Part shown: positions 1,430 to 6,991 of the stretch, one piece after another
How the letters are laid out: each line of letters begins with the position of its first letter
Position numbering within the stretch: the first letter of the stretch is position 1
The notes under the pieces: model-generated
What the model was told of the DNA's origin: nothing
The model's input: the letters and a program-made list of their open reading frames with translations, nothing else
Database searches by the model: none
Origin: Candidatus Undinarchaeales archaeon
GTDB taxonomy: Archaea > SpSt-1190 > JASMDC01
Assembly (NCBI GenBank): GCA_030753015.1
Contig: JASMDC010000029.1
Location: forward strand, 1-6,991
DNA: 6,991 nucleotides
Direction of reading: 5' to 3'
Position numbers and translations under genes: made by a program

Positions 1430-1470
1430 GGATTCTTCCCCGTTGTTGAGGATTGACGGAGCTACATCAT

Positions 1471-1478
1471 TTATAAAA
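1471..1478 (-). promoter_or_regulatory. Archaeal TATA box for the permease gene
   Basis: The minus strand reads TTTTATAA here, preceded by a purine-rich CGAAACA that fits a BRE. The centre is about 45 nt from the ATG at 1429, so transcription should begin near 1448 and leave a leader of about 20 nt. This is a consensus match by eye only. Confidence 0.6.
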
Positions 1479-1614
1479 TGTTTCGACCGAGAAGCCCACC
1501 TAACTTGTTGTGGGATGGATTGCTCACTACTTCCCCTAATGCTCTTGGATGTGACGCTGGATGAATCTATGTGGTAACATTACCCTCTGTTCCGATGTAG
1601 TAATCTGGATAGCG

Positions 1615-1636
1615 CACAAATCACCCGCTATTTGTG
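1615..1636. repeat. Perfect 7-bp inverted repeat, possible operator or hairpin
   Basis: CACAAAT at 1615-1621 and ATTTGTG at 1630-1636 are exact reverse complements separated by 8 nt (CACCCGCT). It lies in non-coding DNA about 180 nt beyond the permease start. It is not followed by a T-run on either strand, so a regulator site or a transposon-end hairpin is as likely as a terminator. Function is not determinable. Confidence 0.45.
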
Positions 1637-1670
1637 TCATACATAGTACTCCCTCTGGTCGTAAGAAAAT

Positions 1671-1678
1671 AATTTAAT
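1671..1678 (+). promoter_or_regulatory. Possible TATA element upstream of the structured RNA block
   Basis: AATTTAAT follows an A-rich, purine-rich stretch (GTAAGAAAATA) in a TATA/BRE-like arrangement on the plus strand. A start about 26 nt downstream (near 1700) would produce an RNA that runs through the hairpins at 1715-1789. The same A/T tract read on the other strand could instead be a T-rich terminator for the glycosyltransferase operon. Confidence 0.3.
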
Positions 1679-1714
1679 CCGCGCCGTACTATAGATATCA
1701 TTCGGGATTGTTCA

Positions 1715-1796
1715 GGGCGGGGACCGTCCGATGCGCCCGTGGAGCTGGGAACAGCTTCGAAGCGGGAAGCCTCCGTAACAGTAGGGGGCAGTTCAC
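1715..1796 (+). mobile_element. Possible relic of an IS200/IS605-type (TnpB) right end / omega-RNA scaffold
   Basis: The plus-strand frame that includes codons 1730-1771 reads APVELGTASKREA, resembling the poorly conserved tails of archaeal TnpB proteins (PVE..., then K-[RQ]-EA). The EA codons run into a 6-bp hairpin, GCCTCC (1769-1774) with GGGGGC (1784-1789), followed by AGTTCAC (1790-1796). As I recall from the family, tnpB 3' ends often overlap a GAAGCC...GGGGGC-type hairpin that ends near TTCAC, and the same DNA encodes the 3' part of the omega-RNA. Before it lies a 7-bp stem with a GGAA tetraloop (1741-1758), enclosed by CCCG (1736-1739) and CGGG (1763-1766). No TnpB catalytic or zinc-ribbon region is present: the frame is closed by a TAA at 1670-1672. 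It would therefore be a remnant or a non-autonomous derivative. The match rests on remembered family features, not a search. Confidence 0.4.
1736..1766 (+). ncRNA. Nested stem-loop with GGAA tetraloop
   Basis: The inner stem is GGAGCTG (1741-1747), loop GGAA (1748-1751) and CAGCTTC (1752-1758), seven pairs including one G-T. The outer stem is CCCG (1736-1739) with CGGG (1763-1766), separated from the inner stem by T on one side and GAAG on the other. GGAA fits the stable GNRA loop class, which favours a folded RNA over chance. An alternative pairing of GGGCG (1715-1719) with CGCCC (1734-1738) competes with the outer stem. Whether it is transcribed is unknown. Confidence 0.4.
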
Positions 1797-1820
1797 AAAG
1801 GGATGTCCCACGCGGGGTTC

Positions 1821-2555
1821 TTACCTCAGCAGACGTCCCAGCAATGTGGAGAACGCCAGGCCCCCGGTCGCGCCAAGTGACAGGACTATCCGCACCCCCG
1901 GACTTATAGGGAGCCTGTGGATGTTGGAGAGAACCCAGCGATCGAAGAAGGCATTGATGCGCACCATGTCCCCGGGCCTGATCCCGCTGGGACGTGCAGG
2001 CCGCAGGGTGATGTCCAGCGAGCCGATAGCCAGGCCTTCCGCGACGGCGGCGAGCACCATCTCGAGGTCGATCTCATAGCCCTCGGCCGTGAGGGGAAGG
2101 GCCAGGGCGCGGGGGGAGAGGGCACGGAAGCCGCACTGGGCGTCCACGTCCGCAAGGACACTGATAAATATCGTAGAGAGGCGGTTGAGGAGCGCCCGTA
2201 CATGAGAGCGATGGACGCGCCGCCGCCCGACCACAAGGTCGTTCCCGCGCTCGACCGCGCGGATGAACCGGAGCACATCTGCGGGCTCGTGCTCGCCGTC
2301 CGCGTCCATGAGCACGGTCGTGCCGTCGAAGCCCTCATCCCGCAGCTGAGCGAGGGCGGCCCTCACCGCAGCGCCCTTCCCGCGGTGGGGGAGTACGAGG
2401 ACCTGGGCGCCCGCCGTCCGTGCGCAGCCGACCGTACCGTCCTGCGAGCCGTCATCGGCGACGATGACGCGGTCCGCGAACGACAGCGCCCGCCGCACGA
2501 CGGGCCCGATCGATCCCTCCTCGTCGAAAGCAGGGATGACCACGATACAGCTCAT
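1821..2555 (-). CDS. GT2 family glycosyltransferase, dolichol-phosphate mannose synthase-like
   Basis: This 244-residue protein has the DPM1-like GT-A fold motifs in order: IPAFDEE (7-13), the nucleotide-binding ADDGSQDGT (33-41), the metal-binding DADGEHEP (84-91), VDAQCGFRA (136-144) and the acceptor-side GYEIDLEM (159-166). Such enzymes transfer a sugar from a nucleotide donor to dolichyl or another polyprenyl phosphate on the cytoplasmic face of the membrane. The C-terminal stretch 220-240 is hydrophobic and could be a single membrane anchor. I chose ATG at 2553-2555 over an in-frame GTG 15 nt upstream because GGAGGGG lies 6 nt before it. The ATG also overlaps the stop of the upstream radical SAM gene as ATGA, so the two are almost certainly one translationally coupled operon. 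Donor and acceptor are not determinable from sequence. The DADGEH variant of the usual DADGQH is a mild deviation. Confidence 0.9.
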   Translation of the reverse strand: MSCIVVIPAFDEEGSIGPVVRRALSFADRVIVADDGSQDGTVGCARTAGAQVLVLPHRGKGAAVRAALAQLRDEGFDGTTVLMDADGEHEPADVLRFIRAVERGNDLVVGRRRVHRSHVRALLNRLSTIFISVLADVDAQCGFRALSPRALALPLTAEGYEIDLEMVLAAVAEGLAIGSLDITLRPARPSGIRPGDMVRINAFFDRWVLSNIHRLPISPGVRIVLSLGATGGLAFSTLLGRLLR

Positions 2556-3928
2556 GCCAGTCCCCTCCACAGCTCTCCGGTCGCCCTGGCAAGAGCTGCG
2601 GCTCGTTCAGGTGAGGCTGCTGCGAGCGCGTGCCGTGCCACGAGCCGAGGGCGAAGGTAGAACCGCCGGAACGCCGATGCGTAGGCGTCCTCCAGCTCGG
2701 CGGCCGTAGCCTCGGCAGATCGTGCCGCTAGCTGTGTGGCAGGGAGCTCCAGGACATCGTCGAGCGAGATCCTGCCTTCCGTCACGAGCCGGTCGAAGAG
2801 AGGAGTACCGGGAAGGGGGAGAAGGAGGTCGAATGATGCGAGGTCGCAGTCGAGCTCCAGGGCGAAGTCCGCTGTCCGCTGGAGGTCCTCCACGGTCTGG
2901 CCGGGCGCCCCCATGAGAAAGTGCGCCAGCACTGACACTCCCCGGTCCTTGCACAGGGCGACGGCACGCCGCGCATCATCCACACGAGAGCCCTTGCCCA
3001 GTGAGTCGAGCACGTGCTGTGAGCCCGATTCCACGCCTAGCTTCACAAGATGACAACCGCTGTCCGCCATAGCGTCCACGACATCCTCGTCGAGGGCGTC
3101 TGCTCGGGCGTTCGCCATCCACACCATGTCGCGAGCGGCGAGGTCGTCCGCCACGGCGAGGAACCAGGCCTTGTCATGTGCTATGTTCTCGTCCCGGAAG
3201 AACACCTCCCGGTACCCGTTCGCCTCCAAGAGATCGATCTCCTGGGCGATGTTCGCAGGAGAGCGGGTACGGAAGGTCCGCCCCTGGACGATGCGTGCCG
3301 TGCAGAAGGTGCATCCGTGCGGGCAGCCACGAGAGGCGAGAACGGTGGTGAAGGGGGTCCGGACCGCCAGGGGATTGCTATAGTCGCCCGCGTAGAGATG
3401 GCGGGCCGGGAGCGGTAGAGAGTCCAGGTCCGTGATGACACCCCTGCCCGAGCCTGTCGTACACCCTTTCCGCCTCACTCGAACACCAGTTATGTCGGCT
3501 CCATCCTTGCCGTCCTCAAGCGCATGCAGGAGGTCGGGGAGCACGGCTTCGGCCTCCCCGACGACGGCCGCGTCACAAGCCGTGAGCACCGCGTCCGGCC
3601 GGACGCTGGGAAGATCGCCGAAGAGCACGCGGGCGACCCCGTCCCCCAGGCCCGATAGGAACGACGAGTCATCCCTGAAGGTGCGTGTGGATGTACCTGC
3701 AACGACGACATCGGGAGCAAGGTCCTCCAGGCGGTCGACGATGGCCCCGGCGCCCAGTGCATTGGCCTCTAGGAGGGACACCTCGTGCCCTGAACGCTGG
3801 AGCACGGCGGCGACATAGCCCAGGTGGAGCGGCGGCCAGTGGTAGGACACCCACTTGCGTCGGTGCCAGCAGCCGTACGCGAGGTCACGCTCCACTGCAC
3901 CCGGCGGCTCCACAACGGCCACATGCAT
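2552..3928 (-). CDS. B12-binding-domain radical SAM protein
   Basis: The 458-residue protein has an N-terminal Rossmann-like cobalamin-binding-type domain (about 1-140). Typical features are PPLHLGYVAAVL (32-43), the VLFGDLP strand-loop (101-107) and VVGEAE (122-127). There is no DxHxxG motif, as in many B12-type radical SAM proteins that bind cobalamin base-off without a protein histidine. The linker LPLPARHLY (171-179) leads into the radical SAM domain, with CPHGCTFC (cysteines 202, 206, 209) to bind a 4Fe-4S cluster and SAM. FFRDENIAHD (243-252), LGVESGS (297-303) and FLMGAPGQT (337-345) are later core strands. The start is the ATG at 3926-3928. It lies 23 nt after a TTTTAA element, which fits a leaderless mRNA; a longer frame to 3979 would read through this promoter. 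Members methylate or rearrange unactivated carbons in lipids, cofactors and natural products. The substrate here is unknown. Confidence 0.9.
   Translation of the reverse strand: MHVAVVEPPGAVERDLAYGCWHRRKWVSYHWPPLHLGYVAAVLQRSGHEVSLLEANALGAGAIVDRLEDLAPDVVVAGTSTRTFRDDSSFLSGLGDGVARVLFGDLPSVRPDAVLTACDAAVVGEAEAVLPDLLHALEDGKDGADITGVRVRRKGCTTGSGRGVITDLDSLPLPARHLYAGDYSNPLAVRTPFTTVLASRGCPHGCTFCTARIVQGRTFRTRSPANIAQEIDLLEANGYREVFFRDENIAHDKAWFLAVADDLAARDMVWMANARADALDEDVVDAMADSGCHLVKLGVESGSQHVLDSLGKGSRVDDARRAVALCKDRGVSVLAHFLMGAPGQTVEDLQRTADFALELDCDLASFDLLLPLPGTPLFDRLVTEGRISLDDVLELPATQLAARSAEATAAELEDAYASAFRRFYLRPRLVARHALAAASPERAAALARATGELWRGLA
2562..2568 (-). promoter_or_regulatory. Shine-Dalgarno site that fixes the glycosyltransferase start
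   Basis: The minus strand reads GGAGGGG followed by 6 nt (ACTGGC) and then ATG. It lies inside the last codons of the radical SAM gene, so ribosomes finishing that gene can re-initiate at the overlapping ATGA. It favours the ATG at 2555 over the GTG at 2570. Confidence 0.75.
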
Positions 3929-3951
3929 GGTACGAGGAGGGACACCAAGGG

Positions 3952-3957
3952 TTAAAA
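3952..3957 (-). promoter_or_regulatory. TATA element for the radical SAM-glycosyltransferase operon
   Basis: The minus strand reads TTTTAA, and its 3' edge is 23 nt before the ATG at 3928. Transcription would thus begin at or next to the start codon (leaderless). No Shine-Dalgarno is present: the minus strand upstream of the ATG reads CCTCC rather than GGAGG. Confidence 0.55.
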
Positions 3958-3982
3958 TGTTGTGGGCCGTGCCGAACATAAG

Positions 3983-4021: not shown

Positions 4022-4093
4022 GCCAAGGTAGCAGAGCGGCTATGCGTTCGACTGCAGATCGAATTTATGGGGGTTCAAATCCCTCCCTTGGCT
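4022..4093 (+). tRNA. tRNA-Cys (anticodon GCA)
   Basis: All arms fold by eye. The acceptor is GCCAAGG (4022-4028) with CCTTGGC (4086-4092). The short D stem is GCA/TGC. The anticodon stem TTCGA (4047-4051) pairs with TCGAA (4059-4063), and the 7-nt loop CTGCAGA places anticodon GCA at 4054-4056. The variable loop has 5 nt, and the T stem GGGGG/CCCTC carries loop TTCAAAT (4074-4080). Discriminator base 73 is U, a recognised identity element of tRNA-Cys. CCA is not encoded and must be added after transcription. No intron is seen. Confidence 0.97.
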
Positions 4094-4198: not shown

Positions 4199-5464
4199 AT
4201 GACCAACGAGAGGGCCCTGTTCGTCAATCCTCGGACCGAGGCACCGGGCAAGCGCTTCAACCGAGAACCGCCGATAGGCCTCCTATGCATGGGCGCCGTG
4301 CTCCTCGAGCGGGGCGTCGATGTCGAGGTGCTCGACCTGTCGGTGTCCCGTGATCCGGAGCGGGACCTTGATCGTGCCCTGGGCCACAAGCCTTCACATG
4401 TCGGTTTCACCTGCCTGACCAACACCTTCCCGATTACGTGCGACCTGGCGCGTCATGTCAGGGATGGCAGTGACGCCACTGTGGTGTTCGGTGGCCCCCA
4501 TGCCGCCTTCGCTGCCGATGAAGTGCTGGGGACGGGGCTCGCCGACGCCGTGGTCCTGGGCGAGGGCGAGGACGCGATCGTCGGGCTCGTGGCGGAGGGG
4601 CGGGCGCCCGCCGACGTGGACGGTGTGGCGTGCCTTTTGAACGGTACCGTCCACCGTAGCGAGCAGCAGGAACCGGTGGACCTCACAACGCTCCCCCTTC
4701 CGGCCCGGGACCTCTTGCGCGAACGGTACGACGTCGCCTCCATCATCGTCAACCGCGGGTGTCCCTACCGTTGCATCTACTGCGTCCGCCAGCGTCTCTT
4801 CGCCACGGTGCGGCTGCGGCCGGCAGACCTGGTGGTCGACGAGCTCGACCAGGTGGCGGGGCTCGGCTACCGGTACGCCAACCTCTATGACAATATCAAT
4901 ATCGATCCACGGTACGCTATGGGGCTCTGCGATGCCATCGAGGATGCGGAACCGGCCATCCCCTGGGGGTGCGAGCTCAGAGCAGATGCCGTGTCGGCCG
5001 CGATGGCCCGGGCCCTGGCGAAGGCCGAGTGCGTGGCGGTAGGGGTGGGCGTCGAGTCCGGGAGCGAGGCCGTGCTCCGCTCGGCAGGGAAGCACCAGCG
5101 GCTGTCGAAGGTCCGCGCAGGCATCCGCCGTCTCAAGGAGCAGGGCATCATCGTCCAGGCCTACTTCGTGGTGGGGCTGCCGGGGGAGACCGGGGCCACA
5201 TTCGAGAAGACCCTGGCTTTCCTGGAAACGCTGGGGCTCGAGCCCGGTGTCGACCGGGTCAACTTCTTTGCAGCGACGCCCTACCCGGGCTCCACCCTCG
5301 AGCGCGAGGCCGAGCGGCTGGGGGTCACCATCCTCTCACGCGAGTGGGAGCAGTACGACAACGAGCATGTGCTCATCGGTACGCGGGATCTGTCGCCCGA
5401 CCAGATCGCACGGATGCTGGCACGCGGGAAGGAGCTGGAGGCGTACTACCGGGGCGAGGGATGA
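4199..5464 (+). CDS. B12-binding-domain radical SAM protein (second, distinct)
   Basis: The 421-residue protein combines an N-terminal B12-binding-type Rossmann domain (about 1-135) with a radical SAM barrel (about 180-400). N-terminal hallmarks are FVNPR (8-12), PPIGLLCMGAVL (24-35), VVFGGPHAAF (95-104) and AVVLGEGE (117-124). The linker LPLPARDLL (165-173) precedes RGCPYRCIYC, whose cysteines 188, 192 and 195 form the CxxxCxxC cluster site. VGVESGSE (283-290), FVVGLPGET (323-331) and ATPYPGSTLERE (359-370) are typical later blocks. DxHxxG is absent. The usual FxDDxF-like strand reads LYDNINID (229-236), an unusual variant. The protein shares architecture with the radical SAM protein encoded from 3928 but differs clearly in residues, so the two are not a recent duplication. 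The product should be a cytosolic, oxygen-sensitive iron-sulfur enzyme. It ends 6 bp from the convergent membrane-protein gene. Substrate unknown. Confidence 0.92.
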   Translation: MTNERALFVNPRTEAPGKRFNREPPIGLLCMGAVLLERGVDVEVLDLSVSRDPERDLDRALGHKPSHVGFTCLTNTFPITCDLARHVRDGSDATVVFGGPHAAFAADEVLGTGLADAVVLGEGEDAIVGLVAEGRAPADVDGVACLLNGTVHRSEQQEPVDLTTLPLPARDLLRERYDVASIIVNRGCPYRCIYCVRQRLFATVRLRPADLVVDELDQVAGLGYRYANLYDNINIDPRYAMGLCDAIEDAEPAIPWGCELRADAVSAAMARALAKAECVAVGVGVESGSEAVLRSAGKHQRLSKVRAGIRRLKEQGIIVQAYFVVGLPGETGATFEKTLAFLETLGLEPGVDRVNFFAATPYPGSTLEREAERLGVTILSREWEQYDNEHVLIGTRDLSPDQIARMLARGKELEAYYRGEG

Positions 5465-5470
5465 GGCGGC

Positions 5471-6586
5471 TCAGCCCACTGTGAAGTCCGAGGTCTCCGA
5501 GACGCGCTGGTCGCCATCCACCACCACGAGCTTCATCTGGTAGTCTCCCGCGTCCACTGGCGATTTCATTGCCAGCTTGTACACGCCCCAGTTATCGGTG
5601 CTCACGCACTCGCACATACCGCACTGCACGTCCACCTCGCACATGATGTCACCTTTCTGGCACCCGCTCTCGCCCAGCTCCGACTGGATGCAGATGATGA
5701 CCGCGCCCACGGAGGTCTGCTCGGCAGGTGCGCCATCGTTCCTGGAGACGGTTCCCTCCATCACGATAGGCTCGTCCGGATAGTAATATGACGCGATGAT
5801 CAGGGGAGTCGTGGTGATTGCGTCCGAGGACGGTACGATGAGAACTTGTCCGAGGACGGCCAGCAGGACACCGGCCGCAACGCCGTAGGGGACGGCCTTG
5901 GCGAGGTCGCGGCGGAGCACGTAGCCGACCTGGATGCCCAGGAGGGTCACACTGGTGATGCTCACGAGGAGGAAGTCCTGGGCGAACGAGCCCATGAGGG
6001 GCTTGAGCGGGACGGGATTGATGGCATGTGCGAGCCCCGAGGTGCCCTGCATCAGCAGGAAGTCATCAATGATGGCGACGACGCCACGGTACACCCACAG
6101 ATGGCCGAGGAACATGAACCCGAGCAATACTGCATGGCTCCCGGTCACCTTGTGTATGAGCTGGAGGATGAACAGGGTTAGGAACGCGTTGAACAGGCCT
6201 GCGGCGATGATACCGATCCCCTCGATACCGAAAGCTCCGGTGATTACGATGAGGACGATCACACCCGCCCCAGTGAGATGATACTTGTACTGGTCGTAGG
6301 TGTCCGGATCCTCAATGAACGCCTTGAGGAGCGAGTAGATGAGCCCGTGCATCACGATGATCCCCGCGATCCCTCCCCTGAGGTACAGGGAATAGTCAGC
6401 GCCGAACGCGCCGACGAGAACACTGAATACGGGGACGTACACGGCGGGCATTATGCTGATGATGTACAGAGCATAGATCGTCGTCAGGTCGGAGAAAGTA
6501 TCGACCGGTCCCGGGTCCGTCCGTTCATCATCGTCGACCACGACCGGTCCGTCATCGTCATTGGATCCCTTCCCATCCTCGTCCAT
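5471..6586 (-). CDS. Seven-TM membrane protein with cysteine-rich Ig-like C-terminal domain
   Basis: I do not recognise a named family. The 371-residue protein begins with an acidic, probably cytoplasmic tail (1-30, rich in D). Seven hydrophobic segments follow at about 36-60, 68-90, 104-119, 121-146, 152-173, 200-223 and 231-253. RRDLAK at 225-230 fits a cytoplasmic loop, so the C-terminus should lie outside. Residues 265-371 look like a beta-sandwich: YYYPDEPIVMEGTVSRNDG, then VGAVIICIQ, WGVYKL, DAGDYQMKLVVVDG and a closing DFTVG. Six cysteines (299, 309, 316, 322, 325, 327) cluster in a loop of this domain. The ATG at 6584-6586 was chosen because an AT-rich TATA tract lies about 22 nt upstream; a longer frame to 6730 would read through it and lacks membrane or codon support. 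The seven-TM part could be a sensor, channel or surface-layer-associated scaffold; no catalytic motif was seen. Confidence 0.85.
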   Translation of the reverse strand: MDEDGKGSNDDDGPVVVDDDERTDPGPVDTFSDLTTIYALYIISIMPAVYVPVFSVLVGAFGADYSLYLRGGIAGIIVMHGLIYSLLKAFIEDPDTYDQYKYHLTGAGVIVLIVITGAFGIEGIGIIAAGLFNAFLTLFILQLIHKVTGSHAVLLGFMFLGHLWVYRGVVAIIDDFLLMQGTSGLAHAINPVPLKPLMGSFAQDFLLVSITSVTLLGIQVGYVLRRDLAKAVPYGVAAGVLLAVLGQVLIVPSSDAITTTPLIIASYYYPDEPIVMEGTVSRNDGAPAEQTSVGAVIICIQSELGESGCQKGDIMCEVDVQCGMCECVSTDNWGVYKLAMKSPVDAGDYQMKLVVVDGDQRVSETSDFTVG

Positions 6587-6603
6587 GGGTAGTGTGTGTA
6601 TAC

Positions 6604-6613
6604 TATATTTTAT
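6604..6613 (-). promoter_or_regulatory. TATA box for the seven-TM protein gene
   Basis: The minus strand reads ATAAAATATA, centred about 22 nt from the ATG at 6586, with AATAAG upstream. The distance predicts a leaderless or nearly leaderless mRNA, and no Shine-Dalgarno is present before the ATG. Confidence 0.6.
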
Positions 6614-6674
6614 CTTATTGTGGCCACGTGCGCTCAGCGGACGGCGACGAAAGATTGAAATAATTCCGCACGAC

Positions 6675-6691
6675 CGGATGTGCACGGATGT
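6675..6691. repeat. Tandem CGGATGT motif, 10-bp period
   Basis: CGGATGT occurs at 6675-6681 and again at 6685-6691, one helical turn apart, with GTGCAC between. It lies in the divergent promoter region just before the last gene, so a transcription-factor site is possible. Two short copies may also be chance. Confidence 0.25.
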
Positions 6692-6723
6692 CCTTTTGTG
6701 CAGGACGCCCCCCCGGGGATACC

Positions 6724-6991
6724 ATGACAATGGCTGCAGTTTCCAAGCGAGCGCAGATGTCCCTGTATGCGCTCATCGCTGTGGCCGTCGTCCTCATGAT
6801 CCTCATGGGCGCGTTCACCCGCTGGCGGTCCACAGAAGCGACCGAGGAAGTGCGCGAGATTCGTGCACGCCATACGAAACGGCTCATGGAGAAGGCCCAG
6901 GAGCTCCTCGGGACCTCCCTGGAGAGCGCCGTCCATCGCACCGCTGACGAGATGGCCGTCCACGGCGGGTATCTCGCATCGAGCGTCCCCA
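6724..6991 (+). CDS. Partial single-TM, pilin-like or secreted protein (runs off the window end)
   Basis: An uninterrupted frame of 89 codons reaches the window end. The product starts with a short basic segment, VSKRAQMSLYALIAV (6-20). A hydrophobic helix at about 13-31 and a charged, helix-forming region (33-77) follow. The rest ends in GGYLASSVP at the window edge. A basic KRAQ before a hydrophobic helix resembles archaeal class III (type IV pilin-like) signal peptides, cleaved by a preflagellin-peptidase-like enzyme. A simple N-terminal anchor with a coiled extracytoplasmic domain fits equally well. Starts at 6724, 6730 or an in-frame ATG at 6688 are possible; the last lies about 26 nt after a TATA-like AAATAATT (6658-6665) and would be leaderless. 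The gene is divergent from the seven-TM gene. Family not recognised. Confidence 0.7.
   Translation, partial: MTMAAVSKRAQMSLYALIAVAVVLMILMGAFTRWRSTEATEEVREIRARHTKRLMEKAQELLGTSLESAVHRTADEMAVHGGYLASSVP

Follow-up and report, generated by a model that had tools for sequence, protein, structure and literature searches.

A probable tnpB-deleted IS200/IS605 derivative with both ends kept and an omega-RNA-like right end in an archaeal genome

The PATEs of Haloquadratum arose from IS605-type elements that lost their core (PMC3119063). In Haloquadratum walsbyi they are short, have no transposase gene, carry near-terminal palindromes and lack terminal inverted repeats. IS605 elements of Sulfolobus islandicus have TTCAC as their terminus, with the guide beginning right behind it, and TTTAA is the proven TAM; when TTCAC stands in the place of the TAM, cutting is abolished (PMC11043419). 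The TnpB of ISDra2 cuts the donor joint, which consists of the target motif and the right flank (PMC8612924).

Here, we describe a locus in a window of 6,991 nt (G000:C39:1-6991), the whole stretch of DNA that was analysed, from a 3.85 Mb archaeal assembly of 117 contigs. Four genes with paired TATA-binding-protein repeats mark the genome as archaeal. With a probability of about 0.88, positions 1475-1796 are a 322-base derivative of an IS200/IS605 element: tnpB-deleted, non-autonomous, PATE- or MITE-like and with both ends kept (Table 1). The H. walsbyi PATEs resemble it in all the traits named above, in being core-deleted from a tnpB-bearing element and in having many copies (PMC3119063). They differ in host lineage and sequence family, their copies are more numerous, and the right end in the window has retained the structured TnpB 3' end in full. 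With the TnpB7 elements of S. islandicus the locus shares TTCAC directly before the guide, a TTTAA-type TAM and a sense-overlapping right-end RNA, which is a candidate here (PMC11043419). Those elements carry tnpA and tnpB, whereas the window locus has neither and is known from sequence alone. The intact TnpBs of the genome are homologous to that of ISDra2, the target pentamer of ISDra2, like the putative one here, doubles as the TAM, and the candidate right-end RNA would, like the ISDra2 reRNA, have flanking DNA as its guide (PMC8612924). However, the ISDra2 target is TTGAT rather than TTTAT, and ISDra2 is autonomous with a tnpA of its own.

Table 1. Features of the element and its surroundings. 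Positions refer to the window unless a locus is named.
Feature	Position	Strand	Remark
TTTAT, putative target/TAM just outside left end	1470..1474	+	TTTAT or TTTAA at this place in other copies
Left end (LE)	1475..1526	+	homologous to L025/C117 left end
GAAG	1491-1494	+	directly before small hairpin of left end
Hairpin CCCAC/GTGGG	1495-1514	+	in left end
Element middle	1527..1698	.	172 bases; tnpB catalytic region wholly absent
Right end (RE)	1699..1796	+	homologous to last ~30 tnpB codons plus 3' terminus
Stem 1, GGGCGG-GGA-CCGTCC	1715-1729	+	double-sided changes in 5/6 pairs, 18 sequences
Stem 2, nested, GGAA-capped in window	1736-1766	+	predicted fold; pairs conserved, partly covarying
Stem 3, terminal hairpin GCCTCC...GGGGGC, GGGAA before it	1769-1789	+	double-sided changes in 6/8 pairs across family
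TTCAC, last bases of element	1792..1796	+	common terminus of copies
Flanking DNA AAAGGGATGTCCCACG in guide position	1797..1812	+	position deduced from TnpB biology (PMC8612924, PMC11043419)
AI-2E-type transporter gene	308-1429	minus	PF01594; one side of element's intergenic gap
Family 2 glycosyltransferase gene	1821-2570	minus	PF00535; other side of element's intergenic gap
Intact tnpB, C117	L025:1774-2913	minus	
Intact tnpB, C31	L031:2342-3484	minus	

The right end occurs in about 21 copies in the genome, the window's included, and the other 20 are 79-92% identical to it. In a blastn search of 1600-1900 against the genome, E-values went down to 3e-23 and the matches spanned at most about 1699-1801. 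Three copies lie at the 3' end of a tnpB gene: C117 and C31, which are intact, and C90, which is cut by the contig end. These are the tnpB-linked copies for which the first-pass annotation had proposed a nucleotide search. The TnpB-tail-like frame that it had read, APVELGTASKREA, is real (1733-1771) and is homologous to the C-termini of the two intact TnpBs, SGWEPPDAPVELETASKREASLLVGG and SGWGPPDAPVELETASNREAPLVVEG, each of which runs to the stop. It had also correctly found no TnpB catalytic region at the locus. The C31 and C117 TnpBs carry PF12323, PF01385 and PF07282, their RuvC residues were located by eye in GxDVGL, FEKLN and DRDLNA, and their nearest native solved relative is the ISDra2 TnpB (8bf8, E 6.7e-57).

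The terminus TTCAC is found in 18 of the 19 copies that could be read to their end, the exception being TCCAC at the C31 tnpB, and the DNA that follows it is unrelated among the complete copies. So many sibling copies in unrelated flanks point to transposition. In the copy L023 (C28:14888-14998) the terminal hairpin and the TTCAC end are disrupted, and only about 80 bases separate its left end from the point where its right end starts. C24, C29, C95, C63, C106, C37 and C11 carry several more intact tnpB genes; these are from other subfamilies, and their identity to the C31 TnpB is 24-52%. Contigs C24, C29, C37, C52, C57, C58, C67, C82, C87, C90 and C117 end within or beside elements, as if near-identical long copies broke the assembly, and such breaks at many copies may hide longer ones.

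The predicted RNA fold at the locus has -40.2 kcal/mol (z -3.39), and 1 of 200 shuffles is as good. The nested, GGAA-capped stem-loop and the terminal hairpin of the first-pass annotation are both there; AGTTCAC follows the latter and ends at 1796. Stem 1, which it had left unnamed, is an extra stem. When an alignment of 16 complete right ends was placed on the predicted fold of the window, 93.4% of cells were paired and seven pairs had double-sided changes. Neither value was reached by any of 500 shuffles, and slid controls were 41-53% paired. A covariance model built from 15 copies, with the window left out, matches the window at 1710-1796 with 91.7 bits and a genome-wide E of 1.0e-15. Its 20 other matches in the genome are 19 known copies and one weak match (C84:118997-119076, E 0.03). 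The model also matches two further right ends. One belongs to a TnpB in the genome with 52% identity (L039, E 7e-6), the other to an annotated IS200/IS605 element that bears tnpA and tnpB, from Methanomethylovorans hollandica (E 1.9e-10). The latter (METHO_RS12490/12495, plasmid pMETHO01) has the same terminus, GTAGTTCAC, and its TnpB is 53% identical to that of C31; unlike the window locus it is a full element, with tnpA and tnpB divergently oriented. Once these two ends are included, double-sided changes are seen in 13 of 25 pairs, a number that none of 500 shuffles reaches; the count leans towards structure since the alignment was fitted to the covariance model.

A chance occurrence of hairpins in GC-rich intergenic DNA, with mere resemblance to a TnpB end, has a vanishingly small probability. 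The one result in its favour is the lack of an Rfam match at the locus; it is refuted by the 21 copies, by the E of 1e-15 with an independent model and by the covariation. In a cmscan against Rfam no family was found for the window up to E 10 or for ten tnpB loci up to E 1. As intact tnpB loci fail as well, Rfam lacks the omega-RNA subgroup of these elements, and an Rfam match does not define a TnpB omega-RNA. The covariance search that had been suggested is thus strongly positive with the purpose-built model, whereas none of the Rfam models fits. The aligned copies share a subterminal right-end hairpin and a fixed terminus, stem 3 plus TTCAC, and the conserved structured RNA end overlaps the tnpB 3' end and stops at the right end of the transposon. 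Common descent and covariation establish an omega-RNA-like TnpB end, while its transcription is a candidate only. The reading of the locus as the end of a TnpB element that lacks TnpB and has an omega-RNA-like fold is therefore supported, both by the copies linked to tnpB and by the covariance match.

The block had been marked at 1670-1820. The TnpB-like end and the fold hold, but the element is larger than this block, as it starts near 1475, some 195 bases ahead of position 1670. The element is taken as 1475-1796 because its left end, which follows TTTAT, matches the full-length C117 element. Window positions 1469-1526 align with the sequence that precedes the C117 tnpB with a Smith-Waterman score of 38, against 27 for the best of 200 shuffles, and repeated alignments gave z of 9-10. 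The homology starts exactly at ATTTAT in both, and the DNA before it is unrelated. The copy C66 has the same ATTTAT start when compared with C117 (score 28, with 1 of 150 shuffles as high). The family has two left-end types, and the second, which starts after TTTAA, is found in C31, C57, C22, C95a, C28 and C32. This division, and the likeness of the window's type to an internal part of the copy C95b, count against the preferred explanation. In C95b and C32 (L028 and L019) a TTTAA-type left end is followed, after about 90 bases, by a stretch of a different kind, and in C95b it is this stretch that resembles the window's left end; the arrangement suggests nested or recombined elements.

No inverted repeats were found between the two ends of the element, and the left-end hairpin folds no better than shuffles. 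The middle of the element showed no tnpB homology, and stop codons interrupt all three plus frames between 1470 and 1698. A hairpin of the form CACAAAT-8-ATTTGTG lies within the element at 1615-1636, with a z of -3.8 as DNA. The TATA-like element noted in the first-pass annotation (1671-1678) is located 20-30 bases upstream of the right end and bears only a weak resemblance to such a box; nothing tested supports a promoter role. An empty site was sought through the neighbouring glycosyltransferase, which gave only a 28% relative and no syntenic empty site. The exact insertion at TTTAT is therefore putative. The element has the make-up of a PATE: 322 bp, no tnpB core, and left and right ends that are both homologous to the C117 element.

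No Y1 TnpA (PF01797) was found in the genome, in a search whose controls were positive in five genomes, and for this reason the element is filed as a derivative and not as an autonomous IS200/IS605 member. Likewise, the genome contains no serine resolvase or serine recombinase TnpA (PF00239), the mark of IS607-type elements. As neither Y1 TnpA nor serine resolvase was found, present-day mobility is doubtful. The missing TnpA is in keeping with a plain decayed full-length element, from which tnpB was deleted at the locus and whose ends are passive relics without RNA function. This is a version of the same identity, and it differs from the preferred explanation only in denying a remaining function; we give it somewhat less than an even chance. 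It accords with the persistence of one frame as a TnpB tail, which is expected after core deletion, and with the place of the window copy among the lower-scoring complete right ends. Against it, all three stems still pair and the window-specific changes in stems 1 and 3 keep the pairing. In addition, the other short copies, C31a and C66, suggest that short forms spread. In stem 3 of the window the outer six pairs form and the two innermost do not, a point against the preferred explanation. Among the three options offered at first, which also included a domesticated guide RNA, a non-autonomous derivative that keeps its ends is the best supported.

A Y1 TnpA acting in trans could have placed such a derivative 3' of a TTTAT target, or the element could have shrunk in place through deletion of its core. 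If the right end is transcribed, it could serve as an omega-RNA, with the flanking DNA from 1797 as the guide. By analogy with Sulfolobus and ISDra2, the target of this guide would be the empty site, TTTAT/AAAGGGATGTCCCACG (TTTAT/AAAGGGATG...), for which the putative junction is ...CATCATTTAT/AAAGGGATG... Paired with a TnpB like that of C31 or C117, such an RNA would direct cleavage to the empty site alone, which would help the element to persist; where the element is present, TTCAC stands in place of the TAM and the locus would be spared. It is unlikely that the right-end RNA is made and used. If it were, by the same analogy it would serve element retention, not host-gene regulation. A wider and still less probable proposal is that some 20 solo TnpB right ends express guide RNAs that are loaded in trans on the few resident TnpBs and guard their own loci against loss, so that non-autonomous elements are kept by a shared nuclease without a transposase.

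A domesticated guide RNA that works with one of the genome's TnpBs on a host target, by regulating or cutting it, is very improbable. In its favour, the fold is intact, the genome has intact TnpBs and the locus sits between two genes. But when TTTAN plus 11 guide bases was sought in the genome with at most one mismatch, no match was found outside the element's own locus, where TTCAC replaces the TAM, and a domesticated regulator is for this reason unsupported. With two mismatches, three places match, versus one for the control. Nothing points to conservation of the element, which is missing from the nine other genomes searched from the class and phylum, and the unrelated flanks of its siblings, which point to transposition, also speak against domestication. 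The exact right-end pattern was absent from viral contigs and blastn found none in plasmids; a TnpB search of the viral contigs gave one match, at 35% identity.

TnpB-less IS605 derivatives are already known as a kind, and the window element itself is ordinary. A reading of the sequence alone nevertheless picked out a real TnpB end. The genome, in which TnpA was not detected, combines a set of lone TnpB guide-RNA ends, whose structure is intact, with a small number of intact TnpBs. It would be a good setting in which to learn whether omega-RNA is used in trans by non-autonomous IS605 derivatives.

Several further features of the window were recorded. The sequence TTTATAAA at 1470-1477 is a TATA-box-like palindrome that is overlapped by the putative target and lies some 40 bases upstream of the AI-2E transporter gene; it reads the same in the present sequence and in the deduced empty site. 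A tRNA gene is found at 4022-4093 (Rfam tRNA, 61.1 bits), with the anticodon GCA (Cys) as read by eye. It is flanked by the genes of two radical SAM proteins with B12-binding domains, at 2552-3979 and 4199-5464, in opposite orientations. Two open frames, at 5471-6730 and 23-301, have no Pfam match, and the former looks like a membrane protein.
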